53,731 nucleotides of DNA from Candidatus Eisenbacteria bacterium (GTDB taxonomy: Bacteria; Eisenbacteria; RBG-16-71-46; SZUA-252). Below the pieces are notes generated by a model. The model was given only the letters and a program-made list of their open reading frames with translations, ran no database searches and had not been told where the DNA came from. Shown here in pieces: positions 10,835 to 33,979 of the stretch (position 1 is its first letter; every line of letters begins with the position of its first letter). The position numbers and the translations under genes were made by a program. The DNA lies in assembly GCA_005893305.1 (NCBI GenBank), contig VBOZ01000002.1:1285-55015 (forward strand). Reading direction: 5' to 3'.

Positions 10835-12268
10835 ATGGAAATGAGACATGGCCTGAGAATGCAGCAGAAGCCGACGCTGATCATGACGCAGCGTCTGCAG
10901 CAGGCCTTGAAATTACTACAAATGCCGACCCTCGAGCTCCAGCAGGCGTTGAAGCAGGAGCTGGAGCGGAATCCGCTCCTCGAGGAGGTCGATGAAGTCG
11001 ACGAAGTCGAGGAGATGGAGGAGGTCAAGAAGGAGGCGGGGCAGGAGGACAGCGCCGAGCCGGTCGAGACCGTGGAGCCGGATAAGAACCAGGAGGTCGA
11101 CTGGAACGAGCTCTGGCCGGACCAGTTCGAGGGGCCATCCGCCCCTCGCACGGACGATCCGGACGCCGAGTTCTACGAGCGCGTTCCGGTCACGCGGGAA
11201 AGCCTGGGCGACCACCTGATCGAGCAGCTTCGCCTCCTCTCGCTGGAGGAGGACAATCTTGCGCTCGGCGAATACCTGATCGGGTCGATCGACGAAAACG
11301 GATATCTACAGACGACCGTCGAGGAGGTGGCCGAGACATTCGGCATCGCGCCGGACAAGGTCGAGGACATCCTCGCCGCGATCCAGAAATTCGAGCCCGC
11401 CGGCGTCGGCGCGCGAAATCTCCAAGAGTGCCTCTGGATCCAGCTGGTGCAGCGGAAGCAGGAGACAACGCTCGCGGGTCGGATCGTCCAGGAGCAGTTC
11501 GACAACCTGCTCGCCCGGCGCTTCGGGGAGATCGGCCGGAATCTGAAATGCACCGTCGAGGACGTCCAGGCCGCGGGCGACCTCATCTCCACGTTGGATC
11601 CCCGGCCGGGGCAGGAGATCGCCGCCGAGGAGACCAAGTACGTGACCCCGGACCTGATCGTCGAGCGCGTCGGGGAAGACTTCGTCGTCTCGCTCAACGA
11701 TCGGAACGTGCCGCGGCTCCGGATCAGCGCCGCCTATCAGCAGATGCTTCGCAACAAGACCGCGGGCCAGGACGAGACGCGGAAATTCATCTCCGACAAG
11801 CTGAACTCGGCCAAGTGGCTCATCCAGACGATCGAGCAGCGGCGAAAGACGATGATCAAGGTCATGCGCCGGATCGTGGAGGAGCAGAAGGAGTTCTTCG
11901 AGAGGGGCGTCGAAGGGCTCCGGCCCCTCACGCTCCAGCAGATCGCGAACCAGATCGGGATGCACGAGTCGACCGTCAGCCGCGTGACCACGAACAAGTA
12001 CGTCCAGACGCCGCGCGGCGTCTTCGAGCTGAAGTATTTCTTCTCGAGCGGCCTCGCGACGGAAGAGGGGGACGACGTCTCGGCCAAGGTCGCGAAGGAC
12101 AAGATTCTCACGTTGATCAACAACGAGGACAAGCGCGAGCCGCTGAGCGATCAGCGCGTCGCCGAGATCCTGCACGAGCAGGGGCTCCGGATCGCCCGGC
12201 GCACCGTCGCCAAGTACCGTGAGGCGCTGCGGCTCCTGCCGGCGCGCGCACGGCGGCGTTACGCTTGA
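10835..12268 (+). CDS. rpoN: RNA polymerase sigma-54 factor
   Basis: 477-residue alternative sigma factor that recognises -24/-12 promoters and needs an AAA+ activator. The N-terminal region I is glutamine/leucine rich (MTQRLQQALKLLQMP, then LELQQALKQELERNP), followed by an acidic region II. The core-binding domain contains FEPAGVGARNLQECL; the helix-turn-helix reads MHESTVSRVTTNKYVQTPRG; the DNA-binding RpoN box near the C-terminus is ARRTVAKYRE, close to the classical ARRTVAKYRE/ARRTVTKYRE. Start ATG 10835 gives the conserved N-terminus. No activator gene and no clear -24/-12 promoter was seen in this window. Confidence 0.97.
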   Translation: MEMRHGLRMQQKPTLIMTQRLQQALKLLQMPTLELQQALKQELERNPLLEEVDEVDEVEEMEEVKKEAGQEDSAEPVETVEPDKNQEVDWNELWPDQFEGPSAPRTDDPDAEFYERVPVTRESLGDHLIEQLRLLSLEEDNLALGEYLIGSIDENGYLQTTVEEVAETFGIAPDKVEDILAAIQKFEPAGVGARNLQECLWIQLVQRKQETTLAGRIVQEQFDNLLARRFGEIGRNLKCTVEDVQAAGDLISTLDPRPGQEIAAEETKYVTPDLIVERVGEDFVVSLNDRNVPRLRISAAYQQMLRNKTAGQDETRKFISDKLNSAKWLIQTIEQRRKTMIKVMRRIVEEQKEFFERGVEGLRPLTLQQIANQIGMHESTVSRVTTNKYVQTPRGVFELKYFFSSGLATEEGDDVSAKVAKDKILTLINNEDKREPLSDQRVAEILHEQGLRIARRTVAKYREALRLLPARARRRYA

Positions 12269-12836: not shown

Positions 12837-13806
12837 CCCGACGACCCTGACGGTCGCGCAGCTCTACGAGCAGCAGAAGGAGCAACTCTCGCTGGAGCTC
12901 ATCTCGTCCAGCCTGGACTCGAAAGTCCCGATCACCCTGAGCGACATCAATAGGCCCGGCATGGCCCTGATGGGGTTCACGGAGAACTTCCTCGCGGACC
13001 GCATCCAGATCTTCGGCCGGACCGAAATGGCCTACATCAGCACCCTGGGGCCGAAGGAGCGGAAGCCGGCCTACGACCGGTTTTTCCAGTTCCAGGTCCC
13101 CTGCATCATCGTGGCGAAGGGCCTGGAGCTGCCCGACGGCCTGATCGAGCGCTCGAACGACCGTCAGATTCCGGTGCTCCGCACGCCGCAGGACACGACC
13201 CCGTTCATCCACCAGCTGACCGCGTTCCTGGACTTCGTCTTCGCCCCCTCGGTGACCGTCCACGCCTCACTGGTCGACGTCTACGGCGTGGGGCTCCTCT
13301 TCACAGGACGGAGTGGGATCGGCAAGAGCGAAACAGCCCTCGACTTGGTGGAGCGCGGGCACCGCCTCGTGGCGGACGACGTGGTCCGGATCACGCGGCG
13401 CCACGGGGACATCCTGATCGGCGCTGGCAACGAGGTGCTGAAGCACACGATGGAGGTCCGGGGTCTCGGAATCATCGATGTCCAGGCGATTTTCGGCATC
13501 CGCTCGATCCGCGGGCAGAAGCGGGTCGAGGTGGAAGTGCATCTAACCGAATGGAGCGACGCTCGGGACTACGAGCGTGTCGGCCTCGACGATCAGATGG
13601 CCCCGTACCTCGATGTGCAGATCCCGCTGATCACGATCCCGATCTTCCCGGGGAAGAACATCACGGTGATCGCGGAGGTGGTCGCTCTGAACCACCTCGT
13701 GAAGGTGTACGGCTACCACCCGGCGAGGGCCCTGAACGATCGCCTTATGGAGAGTATGCGCATGAAGCTCTTATCGAACCCACTCGTCCGGGACGACACG
13801 GAATAG
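12823..13806 (+). CDS. hprK: HPr kinase/phosphorylase
   Basis: About 327 residues. It phosphorylates HPr on a serine when energy is plentiful and removes the phosphate otherwise, controlling PTS activity. Evidence: N-terminal MurF-like domain, then VTVHASLVDVYG, Walker A GRSGIGKSE (about residues 161-169), LVADD, and the family signature EVRGLGIIDVQAIFGI; the C-terminal helix includes ALNDRLMESM. The start is uncertain: TTG 12823 is the nearest plausible codon before the family start (LTVAQLYEQQ), overlapping hpf by 14 bases; a CTG at 12847 is the next option. Its target HPr with Ser46 is encoded at 16317. Confidence 0.95.
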   Translation: MSSTSPTTLTVAQLYEQQKEQLSLELISSSLDSKVPITLSDINRPGMALMGFTENFLADRIQIFGRTEMAYISTLGPKERKPAYDRFFQFQVPCIIVAKGLELPDGLIERSNDRQIPVLRTPQDTTPFIHQLTAFLDFVFAPSVTVHASLVDVYGVGLLFTGRSGIGKSETALDLVERGHRLVADDVVRITRRHGDILIGAGNEVLKHTMEVRGLGIIDVQAIFGIRSIRGQKRVEVEVHLTEWSDARDYERVGLDDQMAPYLDVQIPLITIPIFPGKNITVIAEVVALNHLVKVYGYHPARALNDRLMESMRMKLLSNPLVRDDTE

Positions 13807-13820
13807 CGCCGGGGGATGCC

Positions 13821-14213
13821 ATGAATCAAACCCGTCCGGTCGCGCTTCTGGTGACGCACGGCGTTTTGGGTGAAGAGCTGGTGCGGACCGTGGCCTCGAT
13901 CCTGGGACCGCAGTCGGACGTCGCCACGGTGAGCAACAGCGGCTTTTCGGCCGATGGGCTCACGAATGCGATCGAGGAGAAGGTCCGGGAGTTTCCGGCC
14001 GATGCGCCGATCGTGCTCTTCACCGATCTCGCGGCGGGGAGCTGCGGCATCGCGTCGCGCCGCCTGGGCGTAGAGGGTCGAATCGTGCGAAAAATCACCG
14101 GCGTCAACCTGCCGATGCTCCTCGAGTTCTTCCACTATCGAGACACGCTCTCCCTGGACGACCTCCTGCCGCGCTTGGAGGCCAAGGGGAGGGCGGGGAT
14201 CATCATCCTCTAA
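13821..14213 (+). CDS. PTS Man-family EIIA domain protein
   Basis: 130-residue cytosolic phosphocarrier of the mannose/fructose/sorbose PTS family. Phosphate is taken from HPr on His13 in VALLVTHGVLGEEL, the position and context of the active histidine in ManX-type EIIA. TDLAAGSCGIASRRL and ITGVNLPMLLEF match the conserved IIA-Man DLxGGSP and GxNLPMLLE motifs, although GGSP has become AGSC. It lies 14 bases after hprK and 1 base before EIIB. In many proteobacteria this position holds a lone regulatory EIIA; here EIIB, EIIC and EIID follow, so transport is likely. Confidence 0.9.
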   Translation: MNQTRPVALLVTHGVLGEELVRTVASILGPQSDVATVSNSGFSADGLTNAIEEKVREFPADAPIVLFTDLAAGSCGIASRRLGVEGRIVRKITGVNLPMLLEFFHYRDTLSLDDLLPRLEAKGRAGIIIL

Positions 14214-28829: not shown

Positions 28830-29431
28830 CGCGCCGTCCGGCGCGCACGGGCATCTTCGGCGGGACGTTCGATCCGATTCATGTGGGGCACCTCATCATG
28901 GCGGACGAGGTCATGTCCCGCCTCAAGCTCCAACGGCTCCTCTTCATGCCCGCCTCCCGCCCCGCCCACAAGCGCTCGCGAGCCCTGACGAGCGTCGAGG
29001 ACCGGATCGCGATGCTTCGGCTCGCCATCCGCGGACACCAAGGCTTCGCGGTGTCGCGGATCGAGGCCGACGGCTCGGGCGTCTCGTTCACGGCGCGGAC
29101 TCTCGAGACCCTCGCGGCGAAGCTGCCCGGGGAGCTCTACTTCATCATGGGCCAGGACAGCCTGGAGGAGTTTCACACCTGGAAGGATCCCGAGCGGATC
29201 ACCCGCCTCGCGCGCCTGGTCGTGCTTCCAAGGGGCGACCACGATCTCCCGTCCCTCGATCCGTCGCTTCGCCGCAGGGTCGTCTTTCTTAGGCCGCCCC
29301 GAATCGGCATCTCCTCCACCGAGATTCGACGCCGGATTCGCCGCGGGCTCCCGGTCCGCTATTGGATTCCCGATGCGGTCCTAAGCTACGTGACGCGCCA
29401 TGGTCTCTACGGAATCCGCCGGCGCGGCTAA
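28826..29431 (+). CDS. nadD: Nicotinate-nucleotide adenylyltransferase
   Basis: 201-residue enzyme that joins nicotinate mononucleotide and ATP in NAD synthesis. The nucleotidyltransferase signature GIFGGTFDPIHVGHL with its T/HxGH motif is at the start; PASRPAHK, EDRIAMLRLA and the ISSTEIRRRIRRGLPVRYWI segment (SSTxIR nucleotide-binding motif) follow. GTG 28826 overlaps bamD (GTGA). The last 32 bases overlap the start of polA in another frame. Confidence 0.96.
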   Translation: MTRRPARTGIFGGTFDPIHVGHLIMADEVMSRLKLQRLLFMPASRPAHKRSRALTSVEDRIAMLRLAIRGHQGFAVSRIEADGSGVSFTARTLETLAAKLPGELYFIMGQDSLEEFHTWKDPERITRLARLVVLPRGDHDLPSLDPSLRRRVVFLRPPRIGISSTEIRRRIRRGLPVRYWIPDAVLSYVTRHGLYGIRRRG

Positions 29432-29503
29432 GAGCCTCCTCCTCGTTGACGGATCGGCTCTCCTCTACCGCTCTCACTTTGCGTTCATCCGGAACCCGCT
29501 CCG

Positions 29504-29622
29504 GAACGCGAAGGGCGAGCCGACGAGCGTGCCGTACGGGGTGCTCCAGACGCTCGTGCCTCTTCTGGACTCAAAGCATCCGGACCGGGTCGCCGTCGTG
29601 TTCGACACCGCCGCGCCGACGT
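29504..29622 (+). repeat. 119-bp direct repeat, copy 1 (native, polA 5' nuclease domain)
   Basis: Identical over 119 bases to 30662-30780, 1158 bases downstream. This copy encodes AKGEPTSVPYGVLQTLVPL and what follows up to FDTAAPT, which is what the PolA 5' nuclease domain has at this point (family: KGEPTxAVYGF ... FDxGAPTFRH), so it is the original. Confidence 0.95.
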
Positions 29623-30661
29623 TCCGCCACAAGGTGTACCCGGAATACAAGGCGCACCGCCCGCGGATCCCCGATGAGCTCAAGGCGCAGATACCGCGCG
29701 CGCGCGAGGCGATCCGGCTTCTCGGGATTCCGATCGTGGAGCAACCCGGCGTCGAGGCCGATGACCTGATCGGGAGCCTGGCCCGCGAGGCGGAGAGGGA
29801 CGGCGCCGTCGCGATGATCGTGACGGGCGACAAGGACTTCTTCCAGCTGGTCTCCGAGAGGGTGCAGGTGCTCGCGCCGCAGAGTCGGGGCGAGCTGGTG
29901 CCGATCGGCCCGGCGGCGGTGCGCGAGCGCTACGGCGTGGCCCCGGAGGAGATGGTCGACCTTCTGTCGCTCATGGGCGACGCTTCGGACAACGTGCCCG
30001 GCGTTCCCGGCATCGGCGAGAAGACGGCCGCGCAGCTGATTCAGCGGTTTCACTCGGTCGACGCGCTCTATCAGTCCCTGGATCAGGTGGAGCGCGTATC
30101 GCTGCGCGAGAAGCTTCAGAAGCACCGGGAGAGCGCCCTCCTGAGCCGGCAGCTTGTCACCATCCGTTCCGACCTTCCGCTGGACCGGCACTGGTGGGAG
30201 CTGGAGCGCGAGCCGGTCCGGGTCCGGGAACTCCATCGCCTCCTCGACGACCTCGACTTCCGCGCGCTCAAGCGCCGCTTCGCCTCCGAGATCGCGGAGC
30301 CCGTCCCGGGGGAGCTCTTCGCCCCCGCGCCCCCTCCGGGCGAGCTTTTCCCTCGGCCGGCTCCGGCCTCCGTCCCCGCGCGGGCGCCGTTCGGCGAATA
30401 CAAGGTGGTCCGCACCGAGGAGGAGCTCACGGCTCTTTCGCGCGAGCTTCTGGAGGCGGAGGGCCCGGTCGCGTTCGACACCGAGACCACGGGATTGAAT
30501 CCGCTCCGCGCGGACCTGGTCGGAATCTCCGTGGCGACCGCGCCCGGGCGGGCCTACTACCTCCAGGTGGGGCATGAGGCCGGTCCCAACCTCGATCCGG
30601 ATCACGTGCGCGCGGCGCTCCGTCCCTTCTTCGATTCACCTCGGGCCCAGCGCGTCGCGCA

Positions 30662-30780
30662 GAACGCGAAGGGCGAGCCGACGAGCGTGCCGTACGGGGT
30701 GCTCCAGACGCTCGTGCCTCTTCTGGACTCAAAGCATCCGGACCGGGTCGCCGTCGTGTTCGACACCGCCGCGCCGACGT
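30662..30780 (+). repeat. 119-bp direct repeat, copy 2 (misplaced, polA exonuclease domain)
   Basis: Exact copy of 29504-29622. It begins within the codons for QNAK, where PolA would read QNxKYD, and ends just before LDALA, so it replaces about 38-40 codons of the exonuclease domain. Between the in-frame points 30663 and 30781 there are 118 bases, not a multiple of three, so it also shifts the frame. Confidence 0.95.
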
Positions 30781-32240
30781 CTGGACGCGCTTGCCGCCTC
30801 CCGCCTGGGTCTTCAGAAGATCACGACGGAGTCGCTCATCGGCTCGGGCCGGGACCAGGTGACGATGGCCCAACTTCCGGTCGATCGGGTCGCCGAGTAC
30901 GCCGCCGAGGATGCCGACGCCTGCCTCCGCCTGGAGCCGGTCCTCCGCAAGGAGATGGAAGCGACCGGCGTCCTCCCGCTCTTCAGCGAGGTGGAGATGC
31001 CGCTGGTCGGCGTGCTCACGCGGATGGAGCGCGCCGGCGTGAAGATCGACACGCCGCTCCTCGAGTCGATGTCGGCCGATCTGGGCCGCGAGCTCGCGGG
31101 CCTGGAAGAGCAGATTCAGGAAGCAGCGGGGGTTCCGTTCAACGTGAACTCGACGCGGCAGGTCGCGGAGGTCCTCTTCGAGCGCCTCAAGCTCCCCAAG
31201 GGCAAGCGGACGAAGGACGGGTACTCGACCGACGTGGAGGTGCTGGAGCAGCTGGCCCCTCTCCACCCGCTCCCCAAGCTTCTCCTGGCCCACCGCCAAT
31301 TTCAGAAGCTGAAGACCACCTACGTGGACTCCCTTCCGCGCCTGGTGAATCCCGAGACGGGGAGGGTGCACACCACCTTCCATCAAACGGTCGCCTCGAC
31401 GGGGCGGCTGAGCGCGAGCGACCCAAGTCTCCAGAACATCCCGATCCGCACCGAGGAGGGGCGGGCCATCCGGCGCGCGTTCGTCGCGGAGGGGGAGCGC
31501 GGGCTCCTGGCATCCTTCGACTACTCGCAGGTGGAGCTTCGTCTCCTGGCCCACCTCTCCCACGATCCGGTCTTGACCGAGGCGTTTCGCACCGGGGGCG
31601 ACGTCCACGCGACGACCGCGTCGCGCCTCTTTGGGCTCGCGCCGGAGGCGGTCACGCCCGGGCAGCGCGCCCAGGCGAAGGTCGTGAACTTCGGGATTCT
31701 GTATGGGATGGGGCCCGCCCGCCTCGCGCGCGAGCTCTCCTTGTCCCGGGCACTCGCCGCCGCCTTCATCGAGGAGTACAAGCGGACGCTCTCGGGCGTG
31801 GCCGCGTACCTCGATCAGGTGCTCGAAACGGCGCGCCGGACCGGATACGTCGAGACCATCCTGAAGCGCCGCCGCCCGCTTCCTGGGCTCCGGGCGGAAG
31901 GGGCCCGTCGGGCCGACGCGGAGCGCGCCGCGATCAACGCGCCGATCCAGGGCTCGGCCGCGGATCTGGTCAAGGTGGCGATGGTCAAGATCGACTCGCT
32001 TCTCGCGGAGCAGGGGTACCGCACGCGACTCATCCTCCAGCTGCACGACGAGCTCCTCTTCGAGACCGACGAGGACGAGATCGGGGCGGCGTCGTCGATC
32101 ATCCGGGAGGTGATGGAGCACGCGATCCCGCTCCGCGTGCCCCTCGTGGTGCACCAGGGGCAGGGGCGCACGTGGGCCGACGCCCATGCGTGACGGGATT
32201 CGGCTTGACCCTGCGCCGTGCCGACCGATAGGTTGAAACG

Positions 32241-32874: not shown

Positions 32875-33979
32875 GTGGATTTGATGGAGACGCGAAGGCG
32901 CCTTGAGGACGGCCGCCAGATTCTGGCGGAGCTCCGGAGCTATCTTTGACATCGAGCAGCGCGAAGCGCGCGCCCGGGAGCTCGAGGGCAAGATGGCGGA
33001 GCCGGGCTTCTGGGAGGATCCGGAGAAGGCGCAGAAGGTCGTAGCCGATCTCAAGGCGCTCCGCCGCATCTACGAACCCTACCAGGAACTCCTGCGGCAG
33101 ATCGACGACGCGGAGGGGATGGCGGCGCTCGTGGCGCAGGAGCCCGACGAGTCGATCGCGGCGGAGCTGGAGGAGCAGTCGAAGAGTCTCCTTCCTCGAA
33201 TCCACGCCCTCGAGATGCGGAGCCTTCTCTCCGAGGAGAGCGACGCGCACGGCGCCATCGTGACGATCCATCCGGGCGCCGGCGGGACTGAATCCCAGGA
33301 CTGGGCCGAGATGCTCTTCCGGATGTACACCCGTTACGTGGAGCGGAGGGGCTGGAGCACGCAGGTGCTCGACCTGCAGCCGGGGGACGAGGCGGGGATC
33401 AAGGACGCCACGATTCAGGTGGACGGCGACTTCGCCTACGGCTACCTGAAGGCGGAGCGCGGTGTCCACCGCCTGGTGCGAATCTCGCCGTACGACGCCC
33501 AACACCGCCGGCATACCTCCTTCGCTTCGGTGTTCGTGTTTCCCCAGGTGGGAGAGGACACGAAGATCGACATCAAGGAGAGCGAGATTCGGATCGACAC
33601 CTTCCGCGCCGGCGGGGCGGGAGGCCAGCACGTGAACAAGACCGAGTCCGCGATACGCATCACGCACCTCCCGACCGGCCTCGTGGTTCAGTGTCAGAAC
33701 GAGCGCTCGCAGCACCGAAACCGGGACTCGGCCCTCAAGGTGCTCACGGCGCGCCTCTACGCCATGCGTCTCGAGGAGGACCGCGAGAAATTGAACTCGC
33801 TCGGCGGCGGGAAGAAGGACATCGCGTGGGGGAACCAGATCCGGTCGTACGTCTTCCAGCCCTACACCCAGGTCAAGGACCACAGGACGGACGTCGTCGT
33901 GACCGACGTGCAGTCGGTCATGGACGGCGACCTCGATCCATTCATCGACGCCTATCTGAGGCTGAAGGAGCCCAAGTGA
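32875..33979 (+). CDS. prfB: Peptide chain release factor 2, with programmed +1 frameshift
   Basis: Read as 32875-32946 joined to 32948-33979, giving 367 residues (E. coli RF2: 365). RF2 ends translation at UGA and UAA. The short first frame encodes 24 residues ending LRSYL and meets an in-frame TGA at 32947-32949; skipping T32947 continues DIEQREARARELEGKM. GGQ (residues 249-251, RAGGAGGQHVNKTES) drives peptide release. The codon-reading tripeptide, normally SPF, is SPY (204-206) in VRISPYDAQ. GTG 32875 is preferred because GGAAAGGGG ends 8 bases before it; TTG 32881 and ATG 32884 are alternatives. The stop overlaps the next gene (GTGA). Confidence 0.95.
32936..32950 (+). promoter_or_regulatory. 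prfB +1 programmed frameshift site
   Basis: Sequence GGAG-CTAT-CTT-TGA-C: an internal Shine-Dalgarno-like GGAG (32936-32939), the slippery CTT codon (32944-32946), then TGA and C. This is the known autoregulatory RF2 layout (E. coli: AGGGGGTATCTTTGAC): when RF2 is scarce the ribosome shifts +1 at CTT-T and makes more RF2. The TATCTTTGAC core is identical to the E. coli one; the internal SD is shorter. Confidence 0.95.

Follow-up and report, generated by a model that had tools for sequence, protein, structure and literature searches.

MAGs are documented to contain artificial repeats and local assembly errors that lack read support (Chen et al. 2020, PMC7111523), and misassemblies can also be added by gap closing tools (PMC3446322). 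The repeat described here, within polA, the DNA polymerase I gene of an uncultured bacterium, resembles both. As in the MAG errors, a short foreign internal stretch lies in an otherwise good scaffold and spoils protein-coding genes, and such artificial repeats are detectable with a repeat finder. However, those errors are defined by the lack of read support (PMC7111523), whereas the cases described here were recognised in the assembled sequence, where the stretch out of place exactly matches DNA 0.9–1.6 kb away and has a seed of 10–12 bp at one end. Like wrongly closed scaffold gaps (PMC3446322), a native stretch of approximately 110–140 nt has been replaced by a fill of similar length, and unfilled gaps of 5–105 nt remain in the same assembly. 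Microhomology-mediated template-switch insertions are also similar in that nearby DNA is copied with a short shared word at one junction. However, with three repeats, perfect identity and conserved genes as the targets, an artefact fits better.

The 119-bp repeat in polA

The window, by which we mean the whole 53.7-kb stretch of DNA that was analyzed, consists of bases 1285–55015 of contig 2 in a draft genome of 2.75 Mb and 39 contigs, which scores as 96% complete and 0.15% contaminated. Positions 29504–29622 and 30662–30780 are identical at 119 of 119 bp, as claimed in an earlier note on this DNA, and the ends are sharp, with the bases just outside differing on both sides. The whole window has no further direct repeat, and no inverted one, of 40 bp or longer. 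The next longest exact direct repeat in the 53.7 kb is only 17 bp, and a chance origin of the pair is therefore excluded. The donor is 1.16 kb upstream of the insertion point in polA. The features of the locus are the following:

29400–30661, plus strand: first part of polA in its native frame, with the 5' nuclease domain followed by the N-terminal half of the 3'-5' exonuclease domain (exo I, FDTETT) up to QNAK; from Pfam (PF02739, PF01367, PF01612 positions 1–85) and alignment to relatives
29504–29622, plus strand: copy 1 at its native site, the donor; codons RNAKGEPTSVPYGVLQTLVPLLDSKHPDRVAVVFDTAAPT in the 5' nuclease domain; exact repeat, colinear with relatives
30662–30780, plus strand: copy 2, the misplaced 119 nt; relatives have 112 nt here coding for NAK[YF]DW...DPDQPKN (exo II region), and PF01612 positions 86–117 are missing
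30662–30671, plus strand: 10-bp word GAACGCGAAG, found both in copy 1 and in the native sequence expected at the left junction
30781–32193, plus strand: remainder of polA, frame shifted by one, containing what remains of the 3'-5' exonuclease domain (exo III, YAAEDAD) and a complete polymerase domain; PF01612 positions 118–173 and PF00476 (E=2e-147)
29400–32231, plus strand: open reading frame of 943 aa that passes through copy 2 out of frame; as a gene call it would be a false chimera

The 5'-3' exonuclease N-terminal domain contains copy 1, and there the alignment to relatives is undisturbed; the assignment of copy 1 to the 5' nuclease domain, already made in the earlier note, agrees with both the Pfam match and the colinearity with relatives. 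Copy 2 was said to occupy the site of exo motif II and to shift the frame. The alignment to relatives places its start inside QNAK and its end just before LDALA, and the absence of PF01612 positions 86–117 confirms the claim. The same note described good PolA before and after the copy, and Pfam matches on both sides indicate that the flanks do read normally. The 5' nuclease, 3'-5' exonuclease and family-A polymerase domains are all matched, but in two frames, while in relatives they occupy a single frame. Nowhere is there a complete 3'-5' exonuclease domain in one frame: exo I is read in one frame and exo III in another, and the exo II region between them is replaced. The warning that any gene call here yields a false chimeric protein also holds, as the first frame stays open to 32231 and encodes 943 aa. 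A profile search of the whole genome returns the same gap in the 3'-5' exonuclease domain of polA and no second family-A polymerase, polA being the only one. The missing exo II piece is not found elsewhere in the assembly; a relative's protein used as the query matched the two flanks only.

Comparison with polA of close relatives, a check proposed in the earlier note, was made with seven relatives of the same family in which the exo II region is assembled. A same-genus relative matches a Candidatus Eisenbacteria MAG (record JAEHDN010000008.1). In all seven the interval matching copy 2 is an intact stretch of 112 nt (37 codons and 1 nt), and the protein motif across the region is QNAK-[YF]DW...DPD[QR]PK[NS]-[LI]D[AYH]L. 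Relatives that span the region all have single full-length polA genes. The 119 nt found here in place of 112 nt are a net gain of 7 nt, which accounts for the frame change of +1 between the part that begins at 29400 and the part that ends at 32193. Lost from polA as given are 37 codons and 1 nt, including the Asp of the exo II motif (N-x3-D). A replacement of 38–40 codons had been estimated; the replacement stands, and the count is corrected to approximately 37.

The word GAACGCGAAG starts copy 1, and it is exactly the native left-junction sequence in four of the seven relatives, the other three having a one-base difference. Within the window it occurs at 29504 and 30662 only. A shared seed at this junction is thus present as described, but its length is 10 bp and not 11, since all seven relatives have T as the following native base. 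The right junction of copy 2 has no shared word.

Both parts of polA are under strong purifying selection with no decay (dN/dS 0.17–0.34 versus relatives), and the downstream part (30781–32193) has a normal selection signature, with dN/dS of 0.17–0.30 versus relatives. Given this selection on both parts and two copies that are perfectly identical, a real event would have to be very recent.

Recurrence in the draft genome

We searched forty 20-kb stretches of the genome (800 kb, or 29% of the total; one overlaps the window by 8.3 kb) for exact matches in direct and inverted orientation. Besides polA, the 800-kb sample contains only two pairs of exact repeats longer than 50 bp. In one, 125 bp of trpC (contig 25, locus L208, 12731–12855) reappears reverse-complemented at 11799–11923 inside trpD. 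The insertion point is just after DTCGTGGDGS, approximately 138 nt present in relatives at that place are replaced, and the Pfam match to trpD is split there. The start of the copy has an 11-bp word, GGGACGGCTCG, in common with the native sequence, and the end has GGCG.

In the other pair, 99 bp of a short-chain dehydrogenase gene (contig 7, locus L217, 12101–12199) reappears at 13735–13833. The target is a minus-strand cold-shock gene whose start (VANGT) and end (GERLEFDIVRGPKGLQAANVRKA) are intact, with approximately 122 nt (VKWFN...AEGE) replaced. At one junction the 12-bp word CGAAGGCGAGCG is common with the native sequence of a relative. An RNA gene at this site was considered and rejected; there is no Rfam or tRNA match, and the site is that of the cold-shock gene.

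The replacement recurs in unrelated genes of the same assembly, and in both trpD and the cold-shock gene the copy overwrites conserved codons and shifts the frame. The three cases have a common pattern in which approximately 110–140 nt of a conserved gene are replaced by an exact copy of 99–125 nt, with the donor 0.9–1.6 kb away in either orientation and a shared word of 10–12 bp at one end. All three copies are 100% identical to their donors, although an exact-match search sees diverged copies less well. Apart from the expected window overlap and one repetitive protein, no other 45-bp sharing that would indicate non-local donors is found among the sampled stretches. Repeats of this kind are absent from a 386-kb sample of relatives, which is too small for a significant rate difference.

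Origin of the repeat

Judging from the sequence and its relatives, the second polA copy is in all likelihood an error in the assembly of this draft genome of an uncultured bacterium. With three local copies, each identical to its donor, undecayed and disruptive to a gene, the evidence points to gaps that were filled wrongly. In polA, approximately 112 bases would have been left unassembled, and in closing the gap an assembler or gap filler may have extended the left side through the 10-bp GAACGCGAAG into nearby sequence of the same gene that does not belong there, inserted 119 bases and then joined the right side directly. The same misfilling would have happened at least twice more in this assembly, in trpD and the cold-shock gene. 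The simplest account would be that a local read joined by a short overlap closes some gaps wrongly. The earlier note had offered joining by the assembler at a short shared seed as one of two possibilities; the absence of the exo II piece elsewhere, the intact relatives, the lack of decay in polA and two like cases in a 29% sample all support it. We strongly infer, short of proof, that a gap was wrongly filled and that the gene in the cell is intact. The 119-bp copy is almost certainly not a biological feature, and polA of the living organism is most likely an ordinary one.

The sampled stretches of the genome contain N-runs of 5–105 nt, roughly one per 40–60 kb. These look like scaffold gaps of estimated size, similar to the replaced stretches, although some may instead be sequence that the data holders masked. 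No duplicate flanks with an end-to-end overlap of more than 5 bp are found around the N gaps. An assembler k-mer as the source of the copy length was rejected, as contig-end overlaps vary (35–82 bp) with no fixed k and the other copies are 99 and 125 bp; these variable overlaps do not identify the assembler. Six pairs of contig ends overlap exactly (C16/C23, C2/C28, C7/C8, C32/C38, C15/C25 and C1/C27, by 82, 79, 54, 49, 44 and 35 bp, respectively), suggesting neighbours that could be joined. Separately, a relative genome (G003, contig 22) contains a direct repeat of approximately 555 bp (locus L282, 4594–5148 and 5922–6480); the copies are 1.33 kb apart, and one of them includes an N-run of 269 nt.

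A real and recent mutation would have taken a different course: a template switch at the 10-bp word, 119 bp copied from 1.16 kb upstream, and a switch back, leaving proofreading inactivated and the polymerase domain cut from its start. Such switching would account for a local donor and for microhomology at one junction. However, three events, each 100% identical and each in a conserved gene (polA, trpD, cold shock), would be needed within approximately a third of the genome, with no older, diverged copies among the repeats sampled by exact matching; moreover, the flanking polA sequence is without decay, and polA is the only family-A polymerase. We consider such a mutation very improbable, and a real template switch for polA alone is very unlikely with three perfect cases in conserved genes counting against it. 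It is likewise very improbable that the organism has a true mutational process that starts at words of 10–12 bp and by which conserved genes receive 100–125 bp, in either orientation, from a donor approximately 1 kb away, and that it lives with broken polA proofreading.

A chimera formed in the sequencing library by template switching during amplification, and entering the consensus at low coverage, would still be an artefact. In its favour, both orientations occur and all three cases have short words at one junction, but chimeric reads are normally outnumbered, and replacing rather than adding DNA needs two switches per molecule each time, so that we give this source hardly any chance. The intact open frames of both halves would also fit a real split polA, with a separate 5' nuclease and an internal start of the polymerase domain. 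However, the exonuclease domain is cut mid-way, its exo II region is overwritten by sequence from the same gene, and the relatives spanning the region all have the gene undivided. No promoters or terminators were found between the halves, and the missing promoter-like site argues weakly in the same direction. A split gene is accordingly the most remote of these readings, with a probability close to nil.

Implications and the nearby prfB gene

If the gaps were wrongly filled, at least three misfilled stretches are present in a high-scoring draft genome and every one of them breaks a conserved gene, which serves as a quality warning. Such stretches would pass as gene loss, frameshift or a new chimeric protein. 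They have a signature for which a scan is easily made, an exact repeat of approximately 100–125 bp, in either orientation and within approximately 2 kb, with one copy where a conserved gene breaks.

The window also contains prfB, encoding release factor 2, at 32884–33979. The gene starts in another frame (ATG at 32884 ... LRSYL, then TGA) and continues in the +1 frame at the slip site CTT TGA C (32944–32950), the programmed frameshift site known from prfB. A gene call beginning at 32903 would miss the true start of the gene.
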